The notes under the pieces: model-generated
What the model was told of the DNA's origin: nothing
The model's input: the letters and a program-made list of their open reading frames with translations, nothing else
The model's database searches: none
Shown: piece after piece, positions 1,064-21,016 of the stretch
How the letters are laid out: the number at the start of each line of letters is the position of its first letter
Position numbering within the stretch: the first letter of the stretch is position 1
Source: a virus
Length of the DNA: 23,200 bases
Virus record (IMG/VR): IMGVR_UViG_3300047667_001319
Location: 1 to 23,200 of that record
Direction: 5' to 3' (one strand)
Made by a program: the position numbers and the translations under genes

Positions 1064-2029
1064 ACTCGCTCCTATTGAGATTGTTCTGCCCTGCGTGGAC
1101 AGCTGTTCTGAGAAAATAGATACCGCATCGATACCGTTTACCAATTCATCCGCAAAGCCGACATCTACCGCCGCTTGACCGCGATACACTGCCGCTTCGG
1201 TCGCTAAGACTGCATTAACATCAAGCCCCATATGATCGGCCACCAGTTGCGCAAATTCGTTACGTAGGCCGTCAGATTCCGCTTGAAAACGATCTAGCAC
1301 ATCAGCACCCAGCGCCTCATAGGGATTACCATCGACTTTATGCGCACCAGAGTGGATAAGCGTCACTTTTACGCCGTCTTCTTCTAGCTTTTTAGACATA
1401 TCCGCATGAGCCATGACTACACCAACCGAGCCTGCTATGCCGGTTTGAGTAATTAAACGGCGATGCGCAGAGCTTGCCAGCGCCATACCTGCACTACAGT
1501 TCATGTCGTAGCAGAGAGACCAGAGCCGCTTTCCTGCCTTATCTGCCATCACTCTTAATGCTTGCGATGCATCAAAACAGCCAGAGACCTCACCACCAGG
1601 CGTATCGTTATCCAACAGAACCCCCAAAACTGCAGAGTCTGCAAACGCTAACGATGCCCGCTGAATAATGCTGTCATAACCCGTCATACCACTAAATGAG
1701 TTTAAATAACCCGACTTATGAACCAGCGTGCCTTTAACCGGCAAAATAGCTACACCGCTTACAACGTGATATATAACTTCTTTTTCGCCATATCGATTAA
1801 GCCGCGTTCGGGTTACTGTTTCGCCGCCACTATCTAGTCGCTGACTACCACCCCACGCCGCCGCCGACTGCCGCATTTTCTCACCCGTAAGGATGGTGCC
1901 TTCGTTGTCTTGCAGTTCTAAAATGCCCAGCCGTGGCGCTAGCGCACTAAAAAAAGTGCGCGCGTATCCAGGCTCTAACAGTAGAGGCGTGTTAAGCACT
2001 CTACTGGCTATATGTGCCATGTTTTTCAT
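635..2029 (-). CDS. Head maturation protease, S49/SppA family (lambda gpC-like) with C-terminal scaffold region
   Basis: 464 aa from the ATG at 2029. The N-terminus (MAHIASRVLNTPLLLEPGYA) matches the start of lambda gpC-type proteases. The S49 core includes a likely catalytic Ser179 in CSAGMALAS and Lys231 in GAHKVDGNP. After about residue 320 the protein becomes acidic and alanine-rich, as expected for the scaffold part. The start at 2029 is chosen because AGGAAA lies just upstream and because an in-frame extension to 2086 would run through a terminator hairpin. The enzyme cleaves capsid components inside the prohead. A nested scaffold gene uses an internal start (separate entry). Confidence 0.92.
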   Translation of the reverse strand: MKNMAHIASRVLNTPLLLEPGYARTFFSALAPRLGILELQDNEGTILTGEKMRQSAAAWGGSQRLDSGGETVTRTRLNRYGEKEVIYHVVSGVAILPVKGTLVHKSGYLNSFSGMTGYDSIIQRASLAFADSAVLGVLLDNDTPGGEVSGCFDASQALRVMADKAGKRLWSLCYDMNCSAGMALASSAHRRLITQTGIAGSVGVVMAHADMSKKLEEDGVKVTLIHSGAHKVDGNPYEALGADVLDRFQAESDGLRNEFAQLVADHMGLDVNAVLATEAAVYRGQAAVDVGFADELVNGIDAVSIFSEQLSTQGRTISIGASMSKTDVKPAAETPNATGPAAGEDAPTVQASENTPVTESSGDNEPDAAAQMQARIAGIMQCEEAKGREATANHLAFNTSMSVDNAKALLATVEIAKADASDMGNALADAMANEQAPNIGADQATTAQPGNSLVANYEKVTGDK

Positions 2030-2053
2030 TGTTTGGTTTCCTGAATTGCAGGC

Positions 2054-2084
2054 ATAAAAAAACCCGCACGGGGCGGGCTTTATC
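2054..2084 (-). terminator. Intrinsic terminator between portal and protease genes
   Basis: Minus-strand reading gives AAAGCCCGCCCCGTGCGGG followed by a run of seven Ts. The hairpin sits in the short gap between the portal stop (2102) and the protease start (2029), and argues against a protease start further upstream. Confidence 0.75.
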
Positions 2085-2101
2085 ATTATAAAAATAAGCA
2101 G

Positions 2102-3688
2102 CTAAGCCGCCGCCGAACTGTCCGGCAGATCCTCTGCAAATTTATCGTTTTGCAACCAAGCCGGTTTTGGCAGGCCAGCCGCAGCGCGTTCGTTTTGCTC
2201 TCGCACTTGTTGCTTAAAGACTTCTTGATAATCAAGCCCCATTTGTGCGAGCTCTTTCTCGTACGTGCTAAAGCCGTATTCAACGCGCATGACGGCTTCT
2301 TTTACGTCTTTGAGGCCGTCGATTGCGAGGCGACCTGTGCCGATAAACTCGCAGTTACACCATGCGCCGCGCGCTTCGTAGAAATTTCGCTTAGCACCTT
2401 TGGGCAGTTTGACAATACCGCTATGCAGGACATCTTCTAAAAACAAGCCAAAGATGATTGCACCTTTGCGGGCGGGGATGATTTTTCGCCGCCCCATAAA
2501 GTAGCGCCACTGCTCTAGCATTGACGCCCGCGCGGTGCTGTATGACAAGCCCGAGAAATCTTTGCTTAACCCTTCTTTTGAGAGGTTGAGCCCTGCCGCG
2601 ATCCAGCCAAGTACGCCGCTTTCTAGTTCAGAATAGCCATTATCTACGTTGCCACTGGTGCGCAGGTTTAGGCGTTCATTAGGCAGTAGCTGCAACGCTT
2701 TAACACCGTCACCGATATTAAGCGCCCCGCCTCTAAAGTTGTTAACGGCCAGCATGTAGCTCTCTAGCGTCGCCTCAGTGGAGTCACCCCCAATCAACGC
2801 CATGCCTGCATCTGGACCTAGTTCAGATTCCAGTGTTACTGCATACATTGCGTTAACGATGGCGTTTTGCAACTTGGTATGGTGCATTTTCGGCAGTATT
2901 TGCAGCTGCTCTAATACGCTAAGAAACTGGTTTGCACCGCGCGTTTGGCCGTCTTCTGTTGGTTCAAATATGTGGATTATTTGAGGCCGACCAAAACTGG
3001 TTTCACGGTTGATGCGCTTCCAGCTATGGCCCATACCATCGCCTAGCCCGTAGGCTGAGGTTTGGCCTTCGCGGATGTTGTACGCTAATGCCGCACCGTG
3101 GGCGTCAAATTCGATACCGCCGTGCATCGAGTCTGTATCCATGCTGTTGCTAGGGTTACAAACCCGCTTTGGCGATATGGATTTAATGCAGGTTTTAATT
3201 AACGATCCCGGTCGGTCAATCCATTCAGCTGCTGCAAAATCCTCGCCCAGTCGGGTATGAATACTGACCGTTTCACGCATCATCATTGTGAATGTGCGTT
3301 TACGTTCTGCATCTAAATAGCAGCCGGTTGGATCTTCTGCTACTTCACGCCAAAGCTCTTCTACATCACGAATAAACGCGATTGCGTCATCCTCGTTAAC
3401 ACCGAGCGTTTCCCAGCGCGGCTTGTAACTTAACCGGAAGCTATCACCGACGATGTTATCAATGTGTAGCTGTACGCCGTTGGCCGCAAATGCATTGTTA
3501 CGCACAACATCTTCAGCACGGGCGTTACCCATTTTAAGGTCGGGCAGCAGTGCGGCATCCGCTGTTTTAAGACCGGGATACCATTTTGATAATTGGCCAC
3601 CATGCCCAGCACCCGCACCTTGGTATGCGCTCATGCTTTGCCGCAGCGGTGCGCCATCCAGCCCGACGATTGCTTGAGGATCATTCAT
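2102..3688 (-). CDS. Portal protein, lambda family (gpB-like)
   Basis: 528 aa, the usual size for lambda-type portals. Conserved features include the N-terminal region with ARAEDVVRNNAFAANGVQ, the DPTGCYLDAERKRTF segment, and HIFEPTEDGQTRGANQFL, all characteristic of the phage_portal_2 family. The portal forms the dodecameric ring through which DNA enters the head. The ATG shares a 4-bp ATGA overlap with the gpW stop, so the two are translationally coupled. The C-terminus (about residues 480-528) is Ala/Gln-rich and probably variable. Confidence 0.94.
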   Translation of the reverse strand: MNDPQAIVGLDGAPLRQSMSAYQGAGAGHGGQLSKWYPGLKTADAALLPDLKMGNARAEDVVRNNAFAANGVQLHIDNIVGDSFRLSYKPRWETLGVNEDDAIAFIRDVEELWREVAEDPTGCYLDAERKRTFTMMMRETVSIHTRLGEDFAAAEWIDRPGSLIKTCIKSISPKRVCNPSNSMDTDSMHGGIEFDAHGAALAYNIREGQTSAYGLGDGMGHSWKRINRETSFGRPQIIHIFEPTEDGQTRGANQFLSVLEQLQILPKMHHTKLQNAIVNAMYAVTLESELGPDAGMALIGGDSTEATLESYMLAVNNFRGGALNIGDGVKALQLLPNERLNLRTSGNVDNGYSELESGVLGWIAAGLNLSKEGLSKDFSGLSYSTARASMLEQWRYFMGRRKIIPARKGAIIFGLFLEDVLHSGIVKLPKGAKRNFYEARGAWCNCEFIGTGRLAIDGLKDVKEAVMRVEYGFSTYEKELAQMGLDYQEVFKQQVREQNERAAAGLPKPAWLQNDKFAEDLPDSSAAA

Positions 3689-3888
3689 AAATAAACCCCC
3701 ATTGGTCGGCGTAGTTTGCCGCTGCCGAGCTCTGATTCTAACTGCTGAATGTAGCTTTCTAATTGATAAAGGTTGGCTTGGTTATACTCAACAGAACGCC
3801 CATCTTTTTGCACTTTAACGGCCTTTGTGCCGGTTATAATCTGGTGTTTTGCTAGCCGAGCTTGTTCTAATTGAGTTTGTGTTGCCAT
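3685..3888 (-). CDS. Head-tail joining / head completion protein, gpW family
   Basis: 67 aa from the ATG at 3888 (MATQTQLEQARLAKHQ). The pattern ITGTKAVKVQKDGRSVEY followed by a Gln/Leu-rich helix aligns by eye with lambda gpW, which starts at the equivalent residue. A second in-frame ATG at 3900 would add four residues and overlap the terminase stop; the downstream start fits the family length better. gpW closes the portal vertex after packaging and prepares it for tail attachment. It sits between terminase and portal, as in lambda. Confidence 0.9.
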   Translation of the reverse strand: MATQTQLEQARLAKHQIITGTKAVKVQKDGRSVEYNQANLYQLESYIQQLESELGSGKLRRPMGVYL

Positions 3889-3892
3889 CGTT

Positions 3893-6019
3893 TTACCCAT
3901 TCATCATGCGGCCCAGCTCTTTAAGAGAAAGACCTTGTTTTTTCGGTGTTGGTTTTGGTTGTTGCAGCGCTTCTGGTTTAGATTCCTGCAGCAATTCAGC
4001 ACCGCTTTCATACGCTGTATCAGTATCAATGCTTGGTCGATGATCGATACTTGTTATCAGATCATCCGGCGATTGATCGCCCAGCATATCGACTTGTATT
4101 AATGCGGCGCGCTTTGCTTCCCACCATGATTTCTTTTTAAGGTGCAGTTTTTCAACCATTGCGCAGTGGATCAGATAACATTCGCAATCCCATGCCTCGA
4201 TAGCTGTACCTGATTTTTGTTGCCAAACCATTTTGCCGCGTTGAGTACGCGACGGCGCTTTGACCTCGCCCGTTAGCTGATCAAAATAATCAGTACGGAC
4301 CGATTCATAAAAATGCATTCGACCTGCGCCCGTGCCAGATAATTTCAACCGCCCCGCAAGCGTATCCTTGGATAACTGCGTACCAACTCGCCAAAGCTCT
4401 AAACCAAATCGATCTGCCTTAGTTTTAGTTGCGTTTAGGTCAATACGGCGGGGAAGTGAAACAATCGGCGCATCAGCTGAAGTAGCACCTTTGATTGCGC
4501 GGATTTTTACGCCTTTACCCTGTCTTGATCGCACATATGAGTACGTAGCACCCTGAGTTACACCGTCACTGGTATCAATCTCCATTGCATCAATGGGAAT
4601 AAACGCCCCGCACTCATGCTGATAGCAACCAAATACCATGCGATCTAGCTCAGACCAGACTGGATCGTTAATGTCGTTAATGTCGTTTTTGGCCCAAATT
4701 TCACCGAAGAAAACGAGCCAACTTTCTTGTGCTTCGCCGTAGGCTCTAATAACGATTGCAAGACGATCTCGCTGTACGTCAACCGTCATCAGCAATACTA
4801 AGCCACCATCTGGAACAACCAGCTCTTGATAATCTTCTGCTTTAGCCCGCAATTCATCAGCCGTGGCGTTATCGTCTTTGTATTCGTAACTTTGGCCAAG
4901 CTTCTGGTTTGTGAATTTAATCAGTAGGTTTTGGTTGCCTTTTTCTGACTCTGCCTTGGCTGAGAGATATTCTTTAACAACATCAGCTAAGCTAGTACCT
5001 GGCATACAAACGTACAGCTCAGACAGACCCATAAAACCAGCTTTGCCTGTAAATTTTGCTGTAGGCGTCCAGCCCGCGTTAACGTCACCTCTGTTATATG
5101 CATCAAAACAGGTGCTTCTTATGTTCGTTTGGCGCTGATAATCATCCCATTCCGTGCCGCAATGCGGGCAGACATAAACCGCTGTATCAGGATCAGCTTT
5201 GCCGTAAATAGGATGGCTAGAATCTAGGTTATCAGTACTCCAAACAACGTTTGCAAAATCAAGCACATGCGAATCACCGCACTCATGACAAACAACAGAA
5301 AGCACCCTCTTATCAGTTTGCTCTAATCGAGCCTCTGTTTTTGACAACCCCTTTACTGCAGGCGTTCCACCTACAACAAGCAGCGACCCGATATAACGCT
5401 TTAATCGCTCCTCAATATTACCAATCGCGTCACCCTGACCCGCTACGTTATCAGCAGTATCATCTGGTTCCTCAACAATCCCCAGCCCAACCTTGGACGT
5501 GGATTTTACGTTACCCGGCGAATTAGAGCCGACCAATTTAATAAACCCGCCAGGGAAAGATCGGTTATCCCAGCGCGCCCCTGACTTACGGGAGGTGCTA
5601 ACATCCATCCGACCATTAACCGATGGATTATCCTGAGCAGTTGGCAAAAACTTCTCATCGTGAAAGTTTTTCGCATCACCTGTTTTTGCAAATAACGCTA
5701 GGATCGGGCAGGGATTAAACTCGCCCTCAGCAATCGTTTTACAGATAACACCAAGCAAGAAAAACGTCCAACCAATTTGAGCCGCCTTCATTAGATCAAC
5801 TTCATTAACCGACGGATCATCAAACGGCGCACAAACACCCAAGAAATAAGGGGTGTAATAAAAATCGTATTCACCAAAGTCAGGCAATACAAACTGTGTT
5901 TCTAAATATTCCTTTGTACTAAGTTTCTTCGGCGGATTGAACAGCTCCGCCACTCTCGCCGTCACTTCCGCCAAGTTTGAGCGCATAGTCTCTAACTCGT
6001 TCGATTGCAGCTCCAGCAT
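3893..6019 (-). CDS. Terminase large subunit, lambda gpA family
   Basis: 708 aa. A degenerate Walker A-like segment is at about residues 77-84 (MKAAQIGW), an acidic Walker B-like segment at 177-187 (VGLGIVEEPDD), and a GGTP motif at 217-220. Two CxxC pairs follow (CHECG at 244-248, CPHCG at 284-288), typical of the zinc-ribbon of gpA proteins. The C-terminal half should hold the nuclease (LLMTVDVQRDRLAIVI). The enzyme cuts at cos and pumps DNA into the prohead. The first ATG overlaps the small subunit gene by about 100 bp; the ATG at 5986 would shorten this to about 68 bp and is a reasonable alternative start. Confidence 0.95.
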   Translation of the reverse strand: MLELQSNELETMRSNLAEVTARVAELFNPPKKLSTKEYLETQFVLPDFGEYDFYYTPYFLGVCAPFDDPSVNEVDLMKAAQIGWTFFLLGVICKTIAEGEFNPCPILALFAKTGDAKNFHDEKFLPTAQDNPSVNGRMDVSTSRKSGARWDNRSFPGGFIKLVGSNSPGNVKSTSKVGLGIVEEPDDTADNVAGQGDAIGNIEERLKRYIGSLLVVGGTPAVKGLSKTEARLEQTDKRVLSVVCHECGDSHVLDFANVVWSTDNLDSSHPIYGKADPDTAVYVCPHCGTEWDDYQRQTNIRSTCFDAYNRGDVNAGWTPTAKFTGKAGFMGLSELYVCMPGTSLADVVKEYLSAKAESEKGNQNLLIKFTNQKLGQSYEYKDDNATADELRAKAEDYQELVVPDGGLVLLMTVDVQRDRLAIVIRAYGEAQESWLVFFGEIWAKNDINDINDPVWSELDRMVFGCYQHECGAFIPIDAMEIDTSDGVTQGATYSYVRSRQGKGVKIRAIKGATSADAPIVSLPRRIDLNATKTKADRFGLELWRVGTQLSKDTLAGRLKLSGTGAGRMHFYESVRTDYFDQLTGEVKAPSRTQRGKMVWQQKSGTAIEAWDCECYLIHCAMVEKLHLKKKSWWEAKRAALIQVDMLGDQSPDDLITSIDHRPSIDTDTAYESGAELLQESKPEALQQPKPTPKKQGLSLKELGRMMNG

Positions 6020-6440
6020 GTTTTTCCACCATTTCCGGAGGAAGCTCTACTTCTAACTGATTATTCATATCATCACGTAAACGCTCAAACGACTGCCTAA
6101 ACTGTCGTGTCGCATACATCGACCAATCAGCTAAAAAACTATAAGCCTCTTCCCTATTTATCGTATTCTCTAATTTTTCGTGATAGTCCAAACGCATCAG
6201 CGCCGTTTTAGTTTTCTTTTCTTCATACGTGGCCTGAGCGACATCAACCTGCCCCTCACCACCTCGACCCGCAGCCTGATCTCTCAACTGATCACAATAC
6301 TCAGTCAGCCATTCACCAAACGTTGCGCCCTCAGATAAATTCCCCTTTTCAATCTGCTTGCTAATCGCCTGTTGCGAAACACCAACCAACCGAGCAAATG
6401 CTGTTTGACTAGCTTTAGCATTCAGATTCAAAGTTTCCAT
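5919..6440 (-). CDS. Terminase small subunit, Nu1-like DNA-binding protein
   Basis: 173 aa with an N-terminal helix-turn-helix (SQTAFARLVGVSQQAISKQI, about residues 12-31), a charged linker, and a C-terminal helical part that should bind the large subunit. It sits immediately upstream of and overlapping gpA. The family recognises cos-proximal sites to start packaging. The ribosome site is weak (GGTGATTT before ATG). The RGG-rich part near residues 58-62 is ordinary linker sequence. Confidence 0.87.
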   Translation of the reverse strand: METLNLNAKASQTAFARLVGVSQQAISKQIEKGNLSEGATFGEWLTEYCDQLRDQAAGRGGEGQVDVAQATYEEKKTKTALMRLDYHEKLENTINREEAYSFLADWSMYATRQFRQSFERLRDDMNNQLEVELPPEMVEKHAGAAIERVRDYALKLGGSDGESGGAVQSAEET

Positions 6441-10435: not shown

Positions 10436-10498
10436 ACAATAACACTACGTTCATCGAACAGACTCGTACCTCGCTGTCGTTGAACTGCCTGTTATAAA
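10436..10498 (-). repeat. attC site m2 (end of the minus-strand cassette block)
   Basis: Minus strand: starts TTTATAAC, ends GTTATTGT, with an imperfect inverted repeat between (CAGTTCAACGAC... TCGATGAACGTAGT). It is the same family as the terminal attC of the plus-strand array at 20792-20853. Core ends and hairpin fit an integron cassette recombination site. Confidence 0.8.
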
Positions 10499-10499
10499 C

Positions 10500-10691
10500 C
10501 TAGTTCACTATATGGACTCCTTGAACTTGGTTTTTAAAATTCCCACGCAGAAGCTCAAGAAGCTTTTTAGCACCATCTTCTTCCCGTCTAACTATTGATT
10601 CAGGGGAAGTTCCTGCTTGCAAAATATTTATTATCTGTAGCGCTTCGCGCTCATTTATATCTACAGAAATCGTTTTTGTCTTAGCTTTCAT
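10500..10691 (-). CDS. Integron cassette ORF, 63 aa, unknown
   Basis: Starts at ATG 10691 with GAGGT four bases upstream and stops at the edge of attC m2; a second attC lies just upstream, so the ORF fills one complete cassette of about 270 bp. The protein starts MKAKTKTISVDINEREALQI and is charged, with a helical C-terminal part (EEDGAKKLLELL). The N-terminal strand-helix pattern is faintly like a ribbon-helix-helix protein but I would not name it. Base use differs from the A/C-skewed phage genes on either side. Confidence 0.7.
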   Translation of the reverse strand: MKAKTKTISVDINEREALQIINILQAGTSPESIVRREEDGAKKLLELLRGNFKNQVQGVHIVN

Positions 10692-10703
10692 GTCTACCTC
10701 GAT

Positions 10704-10764
10704 TTATAACAATGCGTTAAATTCGAGCCTCGTTTCACTCGTCCAAATTACCGCGTGGTTATTT
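10704..10764 (-). repeat. attC site m1
   Basis: Minus strand: AAATAACC at one end, GTTATAAA at the other, with inner arms CGCGGTAATTTG and CGAATTTAACGC forming an imperfect hairpin. Closely related to the attC sites at 17724, 18359, 19167 and 20597. The stop codon of the upstream ORF lies in its first core, as usual for cassettes. Confidence 0.85.
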
Positions 10765-10947
10765 GGGCGCTTGAGTTGCATCAGCTTCTGATATGTCTGC
10801 GTTAAGGTTATGGCCGCAACTACCGCAAGGCTCTTCGCTATCGGTGTTATTTTTGTGCTTACAAGCTCCGCAAGGGAAGGCAAAACCTGCTACCGAATGA
10901 GGCGCTTCAAACTTATCGCTTTTAACTATGTACTGTTCAATTCCCAC
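10759..10947 (-). CDS. Integron cassette ORF, 62 aa, with two cysteine pairs
   Basis: Read from GTG 10947 with AGGGG upstream; starts MGIEQYIVKSDKFEAPHSVA. Residues 26-29 (CGAC) and 41-44 (CGSC) form a likely zinc ribbon with a 14-residue knuckle. The frame stays open upstream to a TTG at 11109, but that part runs through a terminator and a half attC, so the GTG start is preferred. The TAA lies inside attC m1. Function unknown; small zinc-ribbon proteins are common cassette contents. Confidence 0.6.
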   Translation of the reverse strand: MGIEQYIVKSDKFEAPHSVAGFAFPCGACKHKNNTDSEEPCGSCGHNLNADISEADATQAPK

Positions 10948-10960
10948 CTTTATCCCCTCG

Positions 10961-10990
10961 CCCCAAATAATAATGCGTTTAATTGTTGTC
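10961..10990 (-). repeat. Truncated attC (right half only)
   Basis: Minus strand AATTAAACGCATTATTATTT matches AATTAAGCGCCTTGTTATTT of the intact site at 20597-20658 except at three positions, and the following bases also match the cassette start there. The partner arm and left core are missing upstream. The core reads ATTATTT instead of GTTATTT. Confidence 0.55.
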
Positions 10991-11048: not shown

Positions 11049-11069
11049 CAAAAACCCCACTAAAGGGGC
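11049..11069 (-). terminator. Intrinsic terminator in the early lytic operon
   Basis: Minus strand GCCCC-TTTAG-TGGGG followed by TTTTT. It follows the small CxxC gene and precedes the cassette block and replication genes, similar in place to lambda tR1. Confidence 0.6.
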
Positions 11070-11105: not shown

Positions 11106-11276
11106 TCAACTCATATCCCCTACCTCACGCTCAAACTCAACACACTTAACCACGCGCACATTATCTGCATGATCAATCTCAATAACAGGGCAATGCTCAA
11201 ACGCAATCGCAGAACAATCATCCTCTCGATGCTCACAAACAGCGCACATACCGCCCTTAGGGATAAACTCACTCAT
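11106..11276 (-). CDS. Small CxxC protein, 56 aa
   Basis: ATG at 11276 overlaps the stop of the dNMP kinase gene as ATGA. The product (MSEFIPKGGMCAVCEHREDD, then cysteines at SAIAFEHCPVI) has a CxxC pair and further cysteines, suggesting a small metal-binding phage protein. No function is recognised. Coupling to the kinase gene and matching composition support it as a true gene. Confidence 0.6.
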   Translation of the reverse strand: MSEFIPKGGMCAVCEHREDDCSAIAFEHCPVIEIDHADNVRVVKCVEFEREVGDMS

Positions 11277-11869
11277 GCCGCCCGCCTCAGATCACACATA
11301 TCAACCGCCCGATCAAACCACGCATCACAACCCCACTTAACCGCCTTATCCAGCTCATCAAGCCCCGCGTTATTCTCAAGCACAAAATCAACAAGCTCAG
11401 CCGAAATACCCTGATCCGTCACATGATCATTAACCGGCCCCACACCAGGGCGAACAACATTAATCACAACACCCCCCTTAGACCGAACAAACCGCGCTTC
11501 CTCATCCGTGCGCACATCCGTAAACACAACACAATCCGATCCAACCGGCTCAAGCGCATCATCCGCCAACAACATCTCAAGCCGCAGCGCCATACACTTA
11601 ACCCACGTATCCGCCCCAAACACCTCACGAACACACTCAGTACCGATACGCTGCAAAATCTCACGCGGCGAAAGCCCCCAATACGGCACAACCTGCTCTT
11701 TTTTAACGCGGTCATTCATCTGGTCCGCCGTTAAACCAAAAACAGCCCGCGCAACTTCACGCATAGGATCAGCAAACGCCCGCTGATACCCAGAACGCTG
11801 CCGTAACAACATCAACGCCGCCGTATCCTTACCGCTACCTGCAAACCCTGTAAAACCTATAACCTTCAT
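11273..11869 (-). CDS. Deoxynucleoside monophosphate kinase
   Basis: 198 aa from the ATG at 11869, with AGGTG upstream; an upstream start at 11884 is less likely. A P-loop GFAGSGKD is at residues 8-15, followed by the FADPMREVARAVFG nucleotide-binding segment and SPREILQRIGTECVRE, both diagnostic of the phage/T4 gp1-type dNMP kinase family. It phosphorylates dNMPs to dNDPs for phage DNA synthesis. The sequence FTDVRTDEEARFV is the usual Walker-B-side motif. It lies in the early operon between the Cro-like gene and the replication genes. Confidence 0.88.
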   Translation of the reverse strand: MKVIGFTGFAGSGKDTAALMLLRQRSGYQRAFADPMREVARAVFGLTADQMNDRVKKEQVVPYWGLSPREILQRIGTECVREVFGADTWVKCMALRLEMLLADDALEPVGSDCVVFTDVRTDEEARFVRSKGGVVINVVRPGVGPVNDHVTDQGISAELVDFVLENNAGLDELDKAVKWGCDAWFDRAVDMCDLRRAA

Positions 11870-11946
11870 AAAACACCTGTACAAAAAAACAGCCCTAACA
11901 CACGGCTAACAATAACCCGCAACACCACCTAAACTTTAACTACAAG

Positions 11947-14748: not shown

Positions 14749-14869
14749 AAATAACCGCCTCATCGCATTAGAGGCAAAAACAGGGCTGCAGGCGCACATC
14801 ACAAACAACGGAAAAAGCGCCCAACTTATTGCAAAACCCAACAACACAACACCGCCAACAGCGGCATAG
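14714..14869 (+). CDS. Small unknown protein, 51 aa
   Basis: ATG with CAGGGG seven bases upstream. It overlaps the end of the LuxR-type gene by 35 bp. The product (MSKILIHPTMFKNNRLIALE...) has no recognised family. Composition follows the A/C-rich plus strand of its neighbours, so it is likely a real member of the operon. Confidence 0.5.
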   Translation: MSKILIHPTMFKNNRLIALEAKTGLQAHITNNGKSAQLIAKPNNTTPPTAA

Positions 14870-16212: not shown

Positions 16213-16407
16213 ATGCTAATACTCACAAGACGTCCAGGCGAATCAGTAATCATCACACTAGAAGACGGAACCGAAATAAACATCGTCACACTAGAAGTAA
16301 ACGGCAACCAAGTACGCACGGGCTACGTTGCCCCGCTCAACGTAAAAGTGAATCGACAAGAGATCCACGACCGCATCAAACAAGAAAAAGAGGCCCGCGC
16401 AGCATGA
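16213..16407 (+). CDS. csrA: Phage-encoded CsrA family RNA-binding regulator
   Basis: 64 aa, starting [14 protein letters not shown] as in CsrA. The GNQVR core (residues 31-35) and [10 protein letters not shown] (with the RNA-binding Arg at 48) are both intact, so RNA binding to GGA motifs is likely. AAGGAG seven bases upstream is strong. It could redirect host carbon, motility or virulence gene expression, or bind phage RNA. It is coupled by a 4-bp overlap to the next gene. Confidence 0.92.
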
Positions 16408-17403: not shown

Positions 17404-17508
17404 ATGATTACAATAAACAGCTACTTTTGCGGCGCAGGACTAATAAATACAGGCAGAGCGAACACTCCGCTATTCAATAGATCAAGAAAAAGAAAAGGTG
17501 ATTCATGA
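17404..17508 (+). pseudogene. DNA (cytosine-5) methyltransferase gene, N-terminal fragment
   Basis: AAGGAG then ATG at 17404; the first residues MITINSYFCGAGLINTG match the start and motif I (SYFxGxGL) of phage C5-methyltransferases. After about residue 17 the similarity stops, the composition changes, and a stop follows at 17508 as the first cassette ORF begins. No other part of the gene is found in the window. The cassette array appears to have interrupted and replaced the rest of the gene. Confidence 0.6.
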
Positions 17509-17729
17509 CGGAAGAGAAGATTAAAGCCGATGCAGTAAAGAATTTTGTTAACTTAATGATTGGCGCGCTAGAAGCAGGTTTTGTTGATTCAAACAGCCCC
17601 ACGCTTGCAGAAATTCATCAAGTGGCAAAACACCACATAAAAGACACTTACGGGATAGACACCCCAAACATTTCTGAAGAATGGGGAGAAGATGTTGCAG
17701 CACTATGCGGGCTTAAAAAGCCGGAATAA
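17505..17729 (+). CDS. Cassette 1 ORF, 74 aa, unknown
   Basis: MTEEKIKADAVKNFVNLMIG... An acidic helical protein with AAGGTG upstream. The middle (SPTLAEIHQVAKHHIKDTYG) reads as a helix. No family is recognised. The TAA is part of the attC that follows. Confidence 0.65.
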   Translation: MTEEKIKADAVKNFVNLMIGALEAGFVDSNSPTLAEIHQVAKHHIKDTYGIDTPNISEEWGEDVAALCGLKKPE

Positions 17730-17785
17730 CCCAGCGGTAATTTGAGCGAGCGGAACGAGATTCGAAATTAAGCGCCTTGCTATTT
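17724..17785 (+). repeat. attC a
   Basis: GAATAAC ... GCTATTT, with inner arms GCGGTAATTTG and GAAATTAAGCGC. Nearly the same sequence as attC c. The right core has GCT where GTT is expected. Confidence 0.8.
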
Positions 17786-17801
17786 TGCGCGGGAGGTAAG
17801 A

Positions 17802-18008
17802 ATGGAAATCGATGTAGATATTAAACGCATAAGTAATGGCTATGTTGTTAAAAGCAATGATAGCTCGAACTCAGAGCGCTATTACCCAACCCTCGGTGAC
17901 ATTATGAGAGCATGGGTAATTGAAGATTTAAACGATAGAGATCGGGAGATTAGAGGGTCTAATTCAGAAGGAACGGTCTGGAAATTTAAGCTTAAGACAG
18001 ACTTATAA
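17802..18008 (+). CDS. Cassette 2 ORF, 68 aa, unknown
   Basis: MEIDVDIKRISNGYVVKSND..., GGGAGG six bases upstream. Alternating strands at the front, one acidic helix (IMRAWVIEDLNDRDREI), then a strand-rich end. It resembles small single-domain cassette proteins of unknown role. The stop lies in attC b. Confidence 0.65.
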   Translation: MEIDVDIKRISNGYVVKSNDSSNSERYYPTLGDIMRAWVIEDLNDRDREIRGSNSEGTVWKFKLKTDL

Positions 18009-18071
18009 CAACGCGATAAAACGCGCGAGAGCAGCGAGCAGCGAGCAGTCGGATTGATTGCATTGTTATCT
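18003..18071 (+). repeat. attC b
   Basis: TTATAAC ... GTTATCT. It contains a triplicated GAGCAGC-like unit (18026-18048) in the loop, making it longer than its neighbours. Intact GTT core. Confidence 0.8.
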
Positions 18072-18091
18072 TTTAAATTAAAGGACGTGTG

Positions 18092-18361
18092 ATGAAAAGA
18101 TTAGGAAATAAAGCAATTAAGAGTGATGAAATGCAGGGTGTCATCGATGGTACTAACTCAAGTATAGAAGTAGGAACGTTGAGACTTGAGCTTGATAGAG
18201 ATACTGCGTGGGCGCTTTGTAATGTTTTAAGCAAAAACCATATTGAAAATGAATGTGTGATGCAGTTAGACAAAAACCAATACAATAGTTTAATTAAATT
18301 AGGTTCTGCTATCGGTGCATTTATTGATCACAGCAACCGCGAGTTCGACCATTTAAAATAA
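18092..18361 (+). CDS. Cassette 3 ORF, 89 aa, unknown
   Basis: ATG at 18092 with AAGGA six bases upstream; a GTG three bases earlier is possible. The sequence (IEVGTLRLELDRDTAWALCN...) has a strand, then helices. No domain is recognised. The stop TAA at 18359 is part of attC c. Confidence 0.65.
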   Translation: MKRLGNKAIKSDEMQGVIDGTNSSIEVGTLRLELDRDTAWALCNVLSKNHIENECVMQLDKNQYNSLIKLGSAIGAFIDHSNREFDHLK

Positions 18362-18420
18362 TAACCCAGCGGTAATTTGAGCGAGTGGGACGAGATTCGA
18401 AATTAAGCGCCTTATTATTT
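18359..18420 (+). repeat. attC c
   Basis: TAATAAC ... ATTATTT, almost identical to attC a in the arms. The right core has ATT instead of GTT, so the cut between G and TT is lost. Confidence 0.75.
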
Positions 18421-18437
18421 GGCACGGGATAATAGAA

Positions 18438-18620
18438 ATGACAGAAATTATTGAATGAGAACCAACAGAAGAATTAAGATGGTTTAGCTATGACGAGCGA
18501 TATTTCCCAAAAAAACTACAACGGAAGTTTATCTGTAAATATTCTGACGGGTGGTCCTGTGAGATATGGGCGGATGTACACGAGAACAATCCTCTTGCTC
18601 GCGTTGAAGCAACCAAATAA
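18438..18620 (+). pseudogene. Cassette 4 ORF with a premature stop
   Basis: Frame from ATG 18438 gives MTEIIE, then TGA at codon 7, then 53 further residues with normal coding character (EELRWFSYDERYFPKKLQRK, then WSCEIWADVHENN) to a TAA that lies in attC d. A single base change (for example TGG to TGA) would explain it. Without it the product would be a 60-aa acidic protein. Ribosome site is poor. A sequencing error cannot be ruled out from this sequence. Confidence 0.6.
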
Positions 18621-18678
18621 CCCCACGGCTTAGCCGATGGAGCGCAACGACAGTCGAGCTTAGAGCCGATTTTTATAC
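18615..18678 (+). repeat. attC d
   Basis: AAATAAC ... TTTATAC, a different attC family with arms CGGCTTAGCCGATGG and CTTAGAGCCG. The right core has TTT for GTT, so recombination at this site should be impaired. Confidence 0.7.
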
Positions 18679-18698
18679 GAATATTTTAGGGATTAGAA

Positions 18699-18937
18699 AT
18701 GACTTACACAGCAAAAAACCATTGGCTAGACAGAGATGAAACTGCCGACACAATGATAGAAATAATGAAGGAGTGCCGGGTATTTAAAGTGCTTAAAAAG
18801 GCTATGAATTTGAAGTTATTGAATGCTGTGATGAGTATTTCGGTGTAACTTTAACTAAAGAGCAAATGCTTGCGCTTGCTGACGAAATTAAAGCTTTAGC
18901 TAATAGCGTACAACCCGAGAGCTCGAGGAAAAGTTAG
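18699..18937 (+). pseudogene. Cassette 5 ORF, first part, frameshifted
   Basis: From ATG 18699 the first ~34 codons (MTYTAKNHWLDRDETADTMI) are coding-like, then the frame ends at 18847. The frame one base back stays coding-like from about 18802 (GYEFEVIECCDEYFGVTLTK then MLALADEIKALAN) to a stop at 18937. The change falls in an A run (CTTAAAAAGG). A one-base loss there is the simplest explanation. Confidence 0.5.
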
Positions 18938-19172
18938 ATTTTGCGGCTCGCGCAAAGAGCGACTTATTAGCGGTTTACGACAGAGGATTGGAGTAACCGA
19001 GGACATTGTCAGCGATGAGGAGCTTCTTGAAAAGACAAAAAACACACTGAGCAGAGCTATAGTTGATTTAGAAATTGCCACGGCGGATTTTACAAAGGCA
19101 GCAACGCCGGAAGTTGTAAAAATAGCTACTGACATAAATAAGGCCTTCACCAAGATTCGGGCGGACCGCTAA
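18900..19172 (+). pseudogene. Cassette 5 remainder, open frame without a start codon
   Basis: A frame opens after a stop at 18897-18899 and reads to the TAA at 19170 (RARGKVRFCGSRKERLISGL then EDIVSDEELLEKTKNTLSRA and DINKAFTKIRADR). No usable ATG with a ribosome site is present. It shares its reading frame with the first part before the shift. It may be the decayed second half of the same gene, or of a second cassette whose attC was deleted. A third frame (ELEEKLDFAARAKSDLLAVY to a stop at 18994) also looks coding-like, so more than one indel is likely. Confidence 0.4.
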
Positions 19173-19228
19173 CCACGCGCTAATTTGAGTGAGTGAAACG
19201 AGATTCAGAATTAAGCGCATTGTTATGC
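19167..19228 (+). repeat. attC e
   Basis: CGCTAAC ... GTTATGC. Arms CGCGCTAATTTGAG and CAGAATTAAGCGC; nearly the same as attC i. Intact core. Confidence 0.85.
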
Positions 19229-19248
19229 GATTGATTAAAGGTAAATTC

Positions 19249-19584
19249 ATGAAGACAAGGCAATACAAAAAACTCTGCAAGAAGGCTATGGAAATATTAG
19301 TGACTGGCGGTATGAATCAGGAGGACTTCTATCAAGGGGAAGACTGTCTGACATATAAAGGAAAAACGCATTGGCTTAAATGCTGGGGCCTAGAGACCGG
19401 CCCTGACTATTTCGGTGAATGCGATTGGTTCGATGCTTGGTATATTCTTACGGAGCGTGTAGCAATTAATACCGCTGATTTCGAATCATGCACTGGTAGC
19501 GACGAAGACGACCCTTGGCGCACAAGCGTTACAGGGACCATAAACATACTGCGACATGGGCGATTAATGTACGGGCTCGCATAA
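19249..19584 (+). CDS. Cassette 6 ORF, 111 aa, unknown
   Basis: ATG 19249 with AAAGG upstream; the frame is open further upstream through attC e, but that part is not coding. The product (MKTRQYKKLCKKAMEILVTG...) has a basic N-terminus and an acidic, aromatic-rich middle (WGLETGPDYFGECDWFDAWY). No family is recognised. Stop in attC f. Confidence 0.65.
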   Translation: MKTRQYKKLCKKAMEILVTGGMNQEDFYQGEDCLTYKGKTHWLKCWGLETGPDYFGECDWFDAWYILTERVAINTADFESCTGSDEDDPWRTSVTGTINILRHGRLMYGLA

Positions 19585-19640
19585 CCCGTGCATAAAACGG
19601 GCGAACGGAGAGAGCATCGTTTTTGATGCAATTGTTAGCA
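19579..19640 (+). repeat. attC f
   Basis: GCATAAC ... GTTAGCA. A third family, with arms GTGCATAAAACGGG and CGTTTTTGATGCAAT. Intact core. Confidence 0.8.
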
Positions 19641-19653
19641 CTTCGAGGTAAAC

Positions 19654-19911
19654 ATGAAAGTTAAAGCAAAATGGAAATACTACGATAGGAGAAAGTACGA
19701 ACTGAAAGAGATTGAGACAACTTACTGCTGCGACGATGCGCGAAACTCAAGCGCGATCACGTTTGGAGAAGTAGACAGCACTCTTAACAGGAATGAGTGT
19801 GTCAACATATCGAGCTGTGCGCCATACCCAGAGGGTGCCGTGTGGGATGAAGAGCCTATTAACTTCTGCCCATTTTGCGGCGCGAAGATACAGATAGATA
19901 TTGAGTGCTAA
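19654..19911 (+). CDS. Cassette 7 ORF, 85 aa, zinc-ribbon-like
   Basis: MKVKAKWKYYDRRKYELKEI..., GAGGT five bases upstream. Cysteine pair YCCDD near residue 25 and a C-terminal INFCPFCGAKIQ knuckle suggest a zinc ribbon similar to small rubredoxin-like domains. Stop in attC g. Confidence 0.65.
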   Translation: MKVKAKWKYYDRRKYELKEIETTYCCDDARNSSAITFGEVDSTLNRNECVNISSCAPYPEGAVWDEEPINFCPFCGAKIQIDIEC

Positions 19912-19965
19912 CCTTTGCCATAAAAGGCGAGCGAAGCGAAGTCCGATTTAATGGCGTTGTTATAC
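19906..19965 (+). repeat. attC g
   Basis: TGCTAAC ... GTTATAC; arms TTTGCCATAAAAGG and CCGATTTAATGGCG. Intact core. Confidence 0.8.
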
Positions 19966-19979
19966 GCCGGGAGCTAGAG

Positions 19980-20306
19980 ATGAGAAACGAACCGACAAAG
20001 GCTTATGTTTACCAGCCAATGCCACCGCAAGAGGATGGAAAGTTTTATGGTGTGGGTGGGCTGCACCAGCTTGGCGTTGACATTGATCACCGTGTGAAAG
20101 GAATTACAAAAGCCGATGCGCAAAAAATTGCCGAACAGTGCAATCAAAAACCAGCCGATGCTGCACAGTTTATAGAAATGGTGCAGGATCGGATAGATAG
20201 CGACTGGCGGCCTGAGTGCGGGTGTCGGTTTGAAAGCATTTTTTCCAATGCGGTTTTGCTGTGTGCGGAGTGTAGCGAACTACCCTGCCACAACAGAGGC
20301 GTATAA
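19980..20306 (+). CDS. Cassette 8 ORF, 108 aa, cysteine-rich
   Basis: ATG 19980 with GGGAG upstream. The front (KAYVYQPMPPQEDGKFYGVG) is followed by a helical middle, then a cluster of cysteines (CGC, then LLCAECSELPCH) typical of a small zinc-binding unit. Upstream open frame is attC g sequence and excluded. No family is recognised. Confidence 0.65.
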   Translation: MRNEPTKAYVYQPMPPQEDGKFYGVGGLHQLGVDIDHRVKGITKADAQKIAEQCNQKPADAAQFIEMVQDRIDSDWRPECGCRFESIFSNAVLLCAECSELPCHNRGV

Positions 20307-20363
20307 CCCAGTTTTTAACGGGTGCGAGTTTAACGAGCATCCACTTTGAAATATTTGTTATTC
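20301..20363 (+). repeat. attC h
   Basis: GTATAAC ... GTTATTC. Arms run CAGTTTTTAACGGG and CCACTTTGAA; less symmetric than others but core intact. Confidence 0.75.
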
Positions 20364-20377
20364 GGCTGGAGCTAGAT

Positions 20378-20602
20378 ATGAGCGAAAAAATGCACCAAGC
20401 AAACCATAGCGAATACCAAATCAGGGTCGATGGAAAGCCAGTTTATTTTAACGGCTGCATCAGCAAGCACACGTTTAACAAATACCGTGAGCTATGCCGC
20501 GAAAACCCTGATTGCTACGTTGATATTGTACGGGTGTCTACTGACATTATTTGCAACCAAGGGACCTACCACGAATTTAAGCGGCACTTTGAAGCCGTAT
20601 AA
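20378..20602 (+). CDS. Cassette 9 ORF, 74 aa, unknown
   Basis: MSEKMHQANHSEYQIRVDGK..., GGAG upstream. A compact mixed alpha/beta protein, with GKPVYFNGCISKHTFNKYRE and a C-terminal helix. Cysteines are present but not in a clear ribbon pattern. Stop in attC i. Confidence 0.65.
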   Translation: MSEKMHQANHSEYQIRVDGKPVYFNGCISKHTFNKYRELCRENPDCYVDIVRVSTDIICNQGTYHEFKRHFEAV

Positions 20603-20658
20603 CCACGCGCTAATTTGAGCGAGTGAAACGAGATTCAGAATTAAGCGCCTTGTTATTT
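20597..20658 (+). repeat. attC i
   Basis: GTATAAC ... GTTATTT, a near copy of attC e with the same hairpin arms. Intact core. Confidence 0.85.
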
Positions 20659-20678
20659 GGCGCGGGAGATAGAAAGTG

Positions 20679-20786
20679 ATGAGTAAAAAAGAGAAGAAAG
20701 AAAAATGCGTGCATTGCGGAAAGAAGATGAAGGCGTGGACAGTTGTTTGCCCTCATTGCGGGAAAGTGAACGGCCACAATAGATAG
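20679..20786 (+). CDS. Cassette 10 ORF, 35-aa two-knuckle zinc ribbon
   Basis: ATG 20679 with GGGAG upstream. MSKKEKKEKCVHCGKKMKAW then VVCPHCGKVNGHN, giving two CxxC knuckles with 11 residues between, a minimal zinc ribbon. Very short but with the right start, stop and attC neighbours for a cassette gene. It is too short for the usual ORF length cut-offs. Confidence 0.7.
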   Translation: MSKKEKKEKCVHCGKKMKAWTVVCPHCGKVNGHNR

Positions 20787-20791
20787 CCGCC

Positions 20792-20853
20792 AAATAACAA
20801 GCAGTTCAACGCCTGCGAGGTTACGAGCTGTACCGATGAACGTAGTGTTATTT
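20792..20853 (+). repeat. attC j (end of the array)
   Basis: AAATAAC ... GTTATTT with arms CAGTTCAACGCC and CGATGAACGTAGT. Same family as attC m2 in the minus-strand block. It marks the right end of the array; sequence after 20853 is not a cassette. Confidence 0.85.
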
Positions 20854-20963: not shown

Positions 20964-21016
20964 TGGAGGCGCGGGTCGGAATCGAACCGGCGTACACGGA
21001 GTTGCAGACCGCTGCA
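20964..21016 (-). pseudogene. tRNA-Cys(GCA) 3' fragment
   Basis: Minus-strand reading gives GCAGCGGTCTGCAACTCCGT, then GCCGGTTCGATTCCG, then CCCGCGCCTCCA. This is the anticodon arm with GCA, the T arm and the acceptor end with CCA of a cysteine tRNA. The 5' half (GGCGCGG plus D arm) is absent upstream. A C/A mismatch in the T stem also speaks against function. A 3' tRNA piece is what integrating elements often carry at their att site. Confidence 0.65.

Follow-up and report, generated by a model that had tools for sequence, protein, structure and literature searches.

Reverse-polarity attC cassettes and their turnover at two early-operon loci of a marine-type temperate phage

The DNA analyzed here (the window) is an IMG/VR virus record of 23,200 bases from a marine-type temperate phage. 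Genes for a lambda-type portal, an S49 protease and a terminase are found in its left part, divergent HTH genes at about 12.2 kb, and a tyrosine integrase and a PrtN-like gene in its right part. A block of small genes, block 2, is located on the minus strand at 10438-10984, between the CxxC gene (11106-11276) and the deoxynucleotide monophosphate kinase gene (11273-11884, PF21448), both also on the minus strand, and a DnaT-like replication gene. The original prediction of two intact attC sites and a half attC with two small minus-strand ORFs between these genes was confirmed. The half attC (10957-10984, minus strand) forms the promoter-proximal edge of the cassettes, with the L''-R'' half (attC polarity) as the only part present. 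It is followed by a 62-aa ORF with CxxC pairs and a GTG start (10759-10947, minus strand), the stop of which overlaps a D1-type cassette attC. This site (10705-10763, minus strand in ORF orientation) has the attC polarity of the plus strand, inverted to the ORFs, and is 95% identical to a site of the related prophage found at a tRNA-Cys in G357, a bacterial genome from the family to which Amphritea belongs. A 63-aa ORF (10500-10691, minus strand) comes next and adjoins the terminal site X (10438-10496, minus strand), a 58-bp attC-like sequence, TAACAGGCAGTTCAACG...GATGAACGTAGTGTTAT, in which both DNA strands fold. No family match was obtained for the 63-aa ORF, and none above weak scores for the block 2 ORFs in general; Rfam gave no match for the block, and blastn none for blocks 1 and 2 against phages or for block 1 against plasmids. 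A terminator-like hairpin was seen by pattern match in the interval separating the CxxC gene from the cassettes (11054-11069, minus strand).

A second block, block 1, occupies 17725-20853 of the plus strand and comprises ten sites. Nine of these, listed in ORF orientation (plus strand) and all of inverted attC polarity, are located at 17725-17786 (a), 18003-18071 (b), 18360-18420 (c), 18616-18679 (d), 19168-19228 (e), 19580-19640 (f), 19908-19966 (g), 20302-20364 (h), and 20598-20658 (i). The tenth is the terminal site X of this block (20793-20853, plus strand), which, with the right flank included (to 21016), has 96% identity to the tRNA-Cys prophage of G357. The best family match of the block 1 ORFs, which include one of 90 aa (18089-18361, plus strand), was zinc-ribbon-like. 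A phage-borne CsrA-family regulator (PF02599) is encoded in the plus-strand early operon at 16213-16407. On the integrase side, a tRNA-Cys 3'-end piece (20970-21016) matches the prophage junction in G357 and is probably the phage attachment site; no whole tRNA was detected in the window by ARAGORN.

The window was compared with a relative of its phage, G003 (IMGVR_UViG_3300029263_001577, 36,530 bases), with the records G001 (IMGVR_3300046449_000160), G002 (3300011261_000105), G008 (3300019764_000028), and G009 (IMGVR_UViG_3300040762_000013), and with the Amphritea prophage G004 (IMGVR_UViG_2599185211_000002). The window terminase had no match in G001 or G002. The sites show the attC architecture, with complementary R''/R' (TAAC/GTTA) and L''/L' arms and extrahelical bases on one arm; in the clearest phage cassette sites there are two extrahelical bases at canonical spacing. 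Block 2 sites are 79–89% identical to block 1 sites over 28–52 nt and also match sites in other phage records. Judged by sequence, the block 2 sites are not due to chance. A search with a structural template, thresholded so that shuffled sequence gave 0.04 false positives per 100 kb of strand, recovered four sites of this type in block 1 and none in block 2; it detected no credible sites in phage P12002L, which was left unclassified. A covariance model built on 34 sites yielded no consensus pairs and was set aside, and a viral scan for another attC type returned known records only. Both blocks contain at least two clustered attC (two and a half in block 2 and ten in block 1), and no intI lies nearby in the window record, itself a fragment. 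They resemble in this respect the phage CALINs (attC clusters without integrase) already known, which are also attC arrays with small genes and no intI in the account available from Qi et al. (2023; PMC9892861). The window record is not a complete integron, since it has no integron integrase gene: the best TIGR02249 match reached 16.5 bits vs. a cut-off of 265.

In a canonical attC it is the R''-L'' arm that, by definition, bears the extrahelical bases, as given in the available text of Bouvier (2009; PMC2727003). When the arms of the phage cassette sites were aligned in ORF orientation, the extra bases were on the other arm in most of them. Polarity was assigned with a profile trained on 15 Amphritea attC only, all of which (15/15) were scored as normal in a leave-one-out analysis. 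By this profile, the cassette attC was opposite to the ORFs in 34/34 sites from G000, G001, G002, G003, G008, and Pseudoalteromonas phage PH101, a count that excludes phage TJE1 and the terminal sites and comes from few phage records, partly related to each other. Of the 34 cassette sites, 30 scored beyond the 95% point of the shuffled background, as did 7 of 10 terminal sites; four cassette sites were not above this background at 0.05. The same profile placed both attC of TJE1 on the ORF strand. PH101, represented by two sites only, was inverted by profile and by ORF test. In G357 the chromosomal integron was normal (2/2) and the prophage inverted (8/8), although the coordinates used for two of these eight sites were misplaced by one or a few bases; an inverted lean was obtained for both nonetheless. 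A template match on the other strand of the same prophage (10751-10807) was judged to be chance and excluded from the counts. In 39 of 44 phage intervals the longest ORF ran against the attC (same strand in four, one tie), a 67 bp interval of G003 block 1 having been left out as too short; in bacterial intervals it was on the attC strand in 12 of 14. An ORF oriented as its attC, the mark of a canonical cassette, was found for 0/34 cassette sites and 0/8 sites of the G357 prophage. The reversed polarity of the cassette sites is well supported by these comparisons. The cassettes had been predicted to be co-directional with the phage operon, which holds for the ORFs and fails for the attC sites. 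An initial idea, exchange via attC top strands, was dropped given the observed polarity.

The last site of both window blocks is X (89% identity over 28 nt, 19 nt perfect). A pattern search of viral contigs located X, besides the window and G003, in G001, G002, and G008; in all, 10 complete near-identical 58-bp copies were found in six records. It marks the downstream end of the blocks and is the last site of the array in most cases. One further cassette follows within 50 bases after X in G003 block 1, and in G001 another attC lies about 750 bases past X, while another X of this record stands solo after a gene. The G357 prophage has two arrays, each closed by X. Among 116 genomes of the family, X was present in G357 alone, in two copies; pattern matches in two further genomes were rejected because X's loop was missing. 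In 293 genomes of the order, none of eight pattern matches was X by eye, all being without X's loop. The G009 contig starts (base 1) inside X, as if the assembly broke at a variable array.

By sequence, X leans toward the polarity opposite to that of the cassette sites: nine of the ten terminal sites and both G357 copies favor the ORF strand, though their scores are weak. Were this orientation real, X could not engage in direct attC x attC exchange with its neighbors. X is also without the first extrahelical base. Deletion of extrahelical bases partly depolarised attC and abolished or strongly reduced attC x attC deletion in the results accessible from Bouvier (2009; PMC2727003). The missing base could make X a stable end, yet the same lack speaks against X being an efficient exchange site. 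The two X sites of the window (10438-10496 and 20793-20853) are inverted relative to each other and enclose about 10 kb, the early and immunity region. Recombination between them could invert this segment, but G003 shows the same arrangement.

The comparison with G003 revealed how these loci vary. Both phages are about 94–95% identical over long stretches, and G003 carries cassette blocks at the same two loci, with other genes. Upstream of block 2, identity with this relative ends at 11123, within the final codons of the CxxC gene, after a flank with 147 of 178 columns alike, so the variable block reaches approximately 11122. Downstream, identity restarts at X, with 275 of 300 columns alike over X and the right flank. 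The same is seen at both pairs of homologous loci (window block 2 and G003; window block 1 and G357), where the right flank is kept, whereas leftward of X the sequences diverge starting at TAAC. Moreover, a cassette of window block 1 (18005-18365, attC b and the 90-aa ORF) was found at 95% identity in block 2 of G003, directly before X. Since both loci are common to G003 and their gene content differs, the loci are old, with contents that turn over and cassettes that pass between them. The original prediction of two independent insertions is contradicted by the occupation of both loci in G003, the common X and the cassette moved between loci. The preferred insertion site that it offered as an explanation survives in the form of the recurrent X, independent insertions in the reading direction being unsupported. 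The comparison turned up no relative in which block 2 is empty. A C5 DNA methyltransferase gene of the relative (L002:2913-3848) is absent from the window except for about its first 16 codons, and this remnant (17405-17500) continues into the first cassette ORF of block 1.

According to the available part of Bouvier (2009; PMC2727003), the recombination point shifts to the other box when the extrahelical bases are moved to the other arm. With inverted polarity, exchange is thus expected at the operon-upstream end of each site, between ATAA and C, and the exchanged units should consist of attC followed by ORF. The 90-aa cassette of the window and G003 has the upstream attC in common (0.87 over 90 nt); its downstream sites differ (0.62, about the value for unrelated pairs) and the match stops at TAAC. 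Once again, the upstream attC was kept and the downstream attC differed for the MYLTVQ ORF of G003 and G357, which also have the methyltransferase gene upstream in common. A 74-aa ORF is followed by a different attC in each of the window, G001, and G003, the last having a 29-nt remnant. In 11 D1-type sites, picked by hand (a regular expression caught three), the 25 nt on the ORF side were alike (mean 0.46 vs. 0.29 for shuffled sequences) and those on the other side were not (0.26 vs. 0.25). The MTYTAK cassette was an exception. Its common part is limited to the right half of the upstream attC, which indicates that break points within attC also occur. The left edges of the blocks, which bear on the question of an attG-type target, are half attC, with break points inside the site, and the G003 site L002:1846-1789 is among the hybrid or half sites of this kind. 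Three other arrays likewise have a half attC at their promoter-proximal edge (L019:2218-2243, L002:9210-9240, and L064:7905-7925).

Integron integrases were present on the bacterial side. Amphritea has two, and the G357 one (C24:1798-2762) is split over two frames (231 and 174 bits), whether by a true frameshift or through an error in sequencing; this IntI may be dead. The cassette cargo of the arrays includes phage-type genes, namely the Sf6 gp66 family (PF13876), NinX (PF10765), and MazG-like genes. One side of the G008 array is an ERF gene (PF04404); on the other side, the gene after X is presumably ninB-like, judging by its look.

Taken together, we favor with moderate confidence the explanation that these phages have a pool of reverse-polarity cassettes, carried at two loci in the window phage and shuffled between TAA and C, probably by a host IntI, with X as the fixed end. 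The mobile unit along the operon would be an attC followed by its ORF, the attC facing against the ORF, and the recombination point of each site would be its operon-upstream end. An integron integrase acting in trans, most likely that of the host, would add, remove and reorder such units, and on the sequence evidence turnover driven by an integrase is likely. If X faces like its neighbors, it would be outermost in attC polarity and not excisable, while the units upstream turn over; units entering at X would place new genes last in the operon. The role of X, whose sequence leans against this orientation, is the weakest step of the proposal. The genes may be reversed because transcription enters from the phage operon, at the end opposite to the Pc of an integron. 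Because every attC retains the same orientation when attC recombines with attC, with the genes carried in reverse, co-direction follows from site polarity and need not mean repeated luck at each insertion. Sites broken inside attC (L002:1846-1789 of G003 and four array edges) are left unexplained by IntI.

A more serious competitor, although a rather unlikely one, is homologous or relaxed recombination of co-infecting phages through the homology islands formed by X and attC, with no integron integrase and with the polarity being ancestral. Mosaicism is consistent with it: G001 matches G003 at 96.6% over 4.6 kb (1644-6210), the remainder being mostly different. The spread of X along with its right flank, the hybrid and half attC and the ERF recombinase encoded by one phage also point this way. 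This mechanism fits poorly with three ORF families that switch sites exactly at TAAC(C), where homology beyond amounts to a few bases, and with cassettes that travel as attC-ORF units. Moreover, homology alone would not maintain the attC pairing and extrahelical bases, which have been kept.

The repeats could also be intergenic hairpins of the phage, either transcript stabilisers or weak terminators, that merely resemble attC. Both strands fold similarly and the sites lie between operon genes, as such hairpins would; nevertheless, we consider this very improbable, given that a profile built from bacterial attC alone puts 30/34 cassette sites above the 95% background level and that the clearest sites combine two extrahelical bases with canonical spacing. 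Functional data point in the same direction: in IntI1 assays described in the available text of Qi et al. (2023; PMC9892861), five of six phage attC, two from PH101 being among the six, recombined with attI1. Least probable of all is the idea that ordinary forward cassettes were inserted on two occasions, each time in the reading direction, into targets that are preferred or tolerated. The ORFs are indeed co-directional with both operons, as it supposes, but the cassette attC opposite to the ORFs already contradict it, and it does not account for two loci common to a relative or for one cassette present at both loci in different phages.

The favored explanation, a phage pool shuffled by a host integrase, can be extended, more tentatively, to phages of one marine bacterial family that keep a reverse-polarity pool, in which X is a possible depolarised counterpart of attI at the 3' end of the early operon and host integrases make the delivery. 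New genes would join at the operon end, never beside the promoter, if X is attI-like.

These arrays resemble the sedentary chromosomal integrons of Amphritea and of G357 (contig C24) in attC architecture and cassette modularity. In the integrons, unlike in the phages, the ORFs are in attC orientation, intI adjoins the array and the bacterial cargo is larger. As phage morons and nin-region accessory genes, the cassettes are small co-directional early-operon genes with gp66, NinX, and MazG-like cargo; what differs here is that attC sites bound every gene and that movement occurs at TAAC junctions. With respect to phage CALINs, the cassettes of TJE1 and PH101 are given as having the same, typical direction in the portion of Qi et al. 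(2023; PMC9892861) consulted, whereas in this analysis TJE1 was normal and PH101 inverted. Inverted attC, a recurrent terminal site and turnover at conserved loci, all seen here, do not appear in that portion of the text. No description of phage attC inverted to the ORFs was found in the literature searched, which covered few subscription papers and no preprints. What sets the present arrays apart from known phage attC arrays is a polarity reversed throughout, a terminal site that recurs, and turnover documented at two fixed loci.

If the favored explanation is true, phages exploit the recombination chemistry of integrons for their own genome plasticity, with the arrangement reversed to suit the phage operon. 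It would account for hypervariable, co-directional small genes amid conserved early genes, and would provide a route for cassettes between phages and hosts. Additionally, a natural set of opposite orientation would make it testable why integron cassettes carry genes in the attC orientation; integron orientation and replication are the subject of PMC11023631, as far as its accessible part goes. A single short attC-like site was also observed in the Amphritea prophage G004 (14790-14839), just upstream of the kinase gene, and a short site like it closes a small array in G001 (39943-39994).
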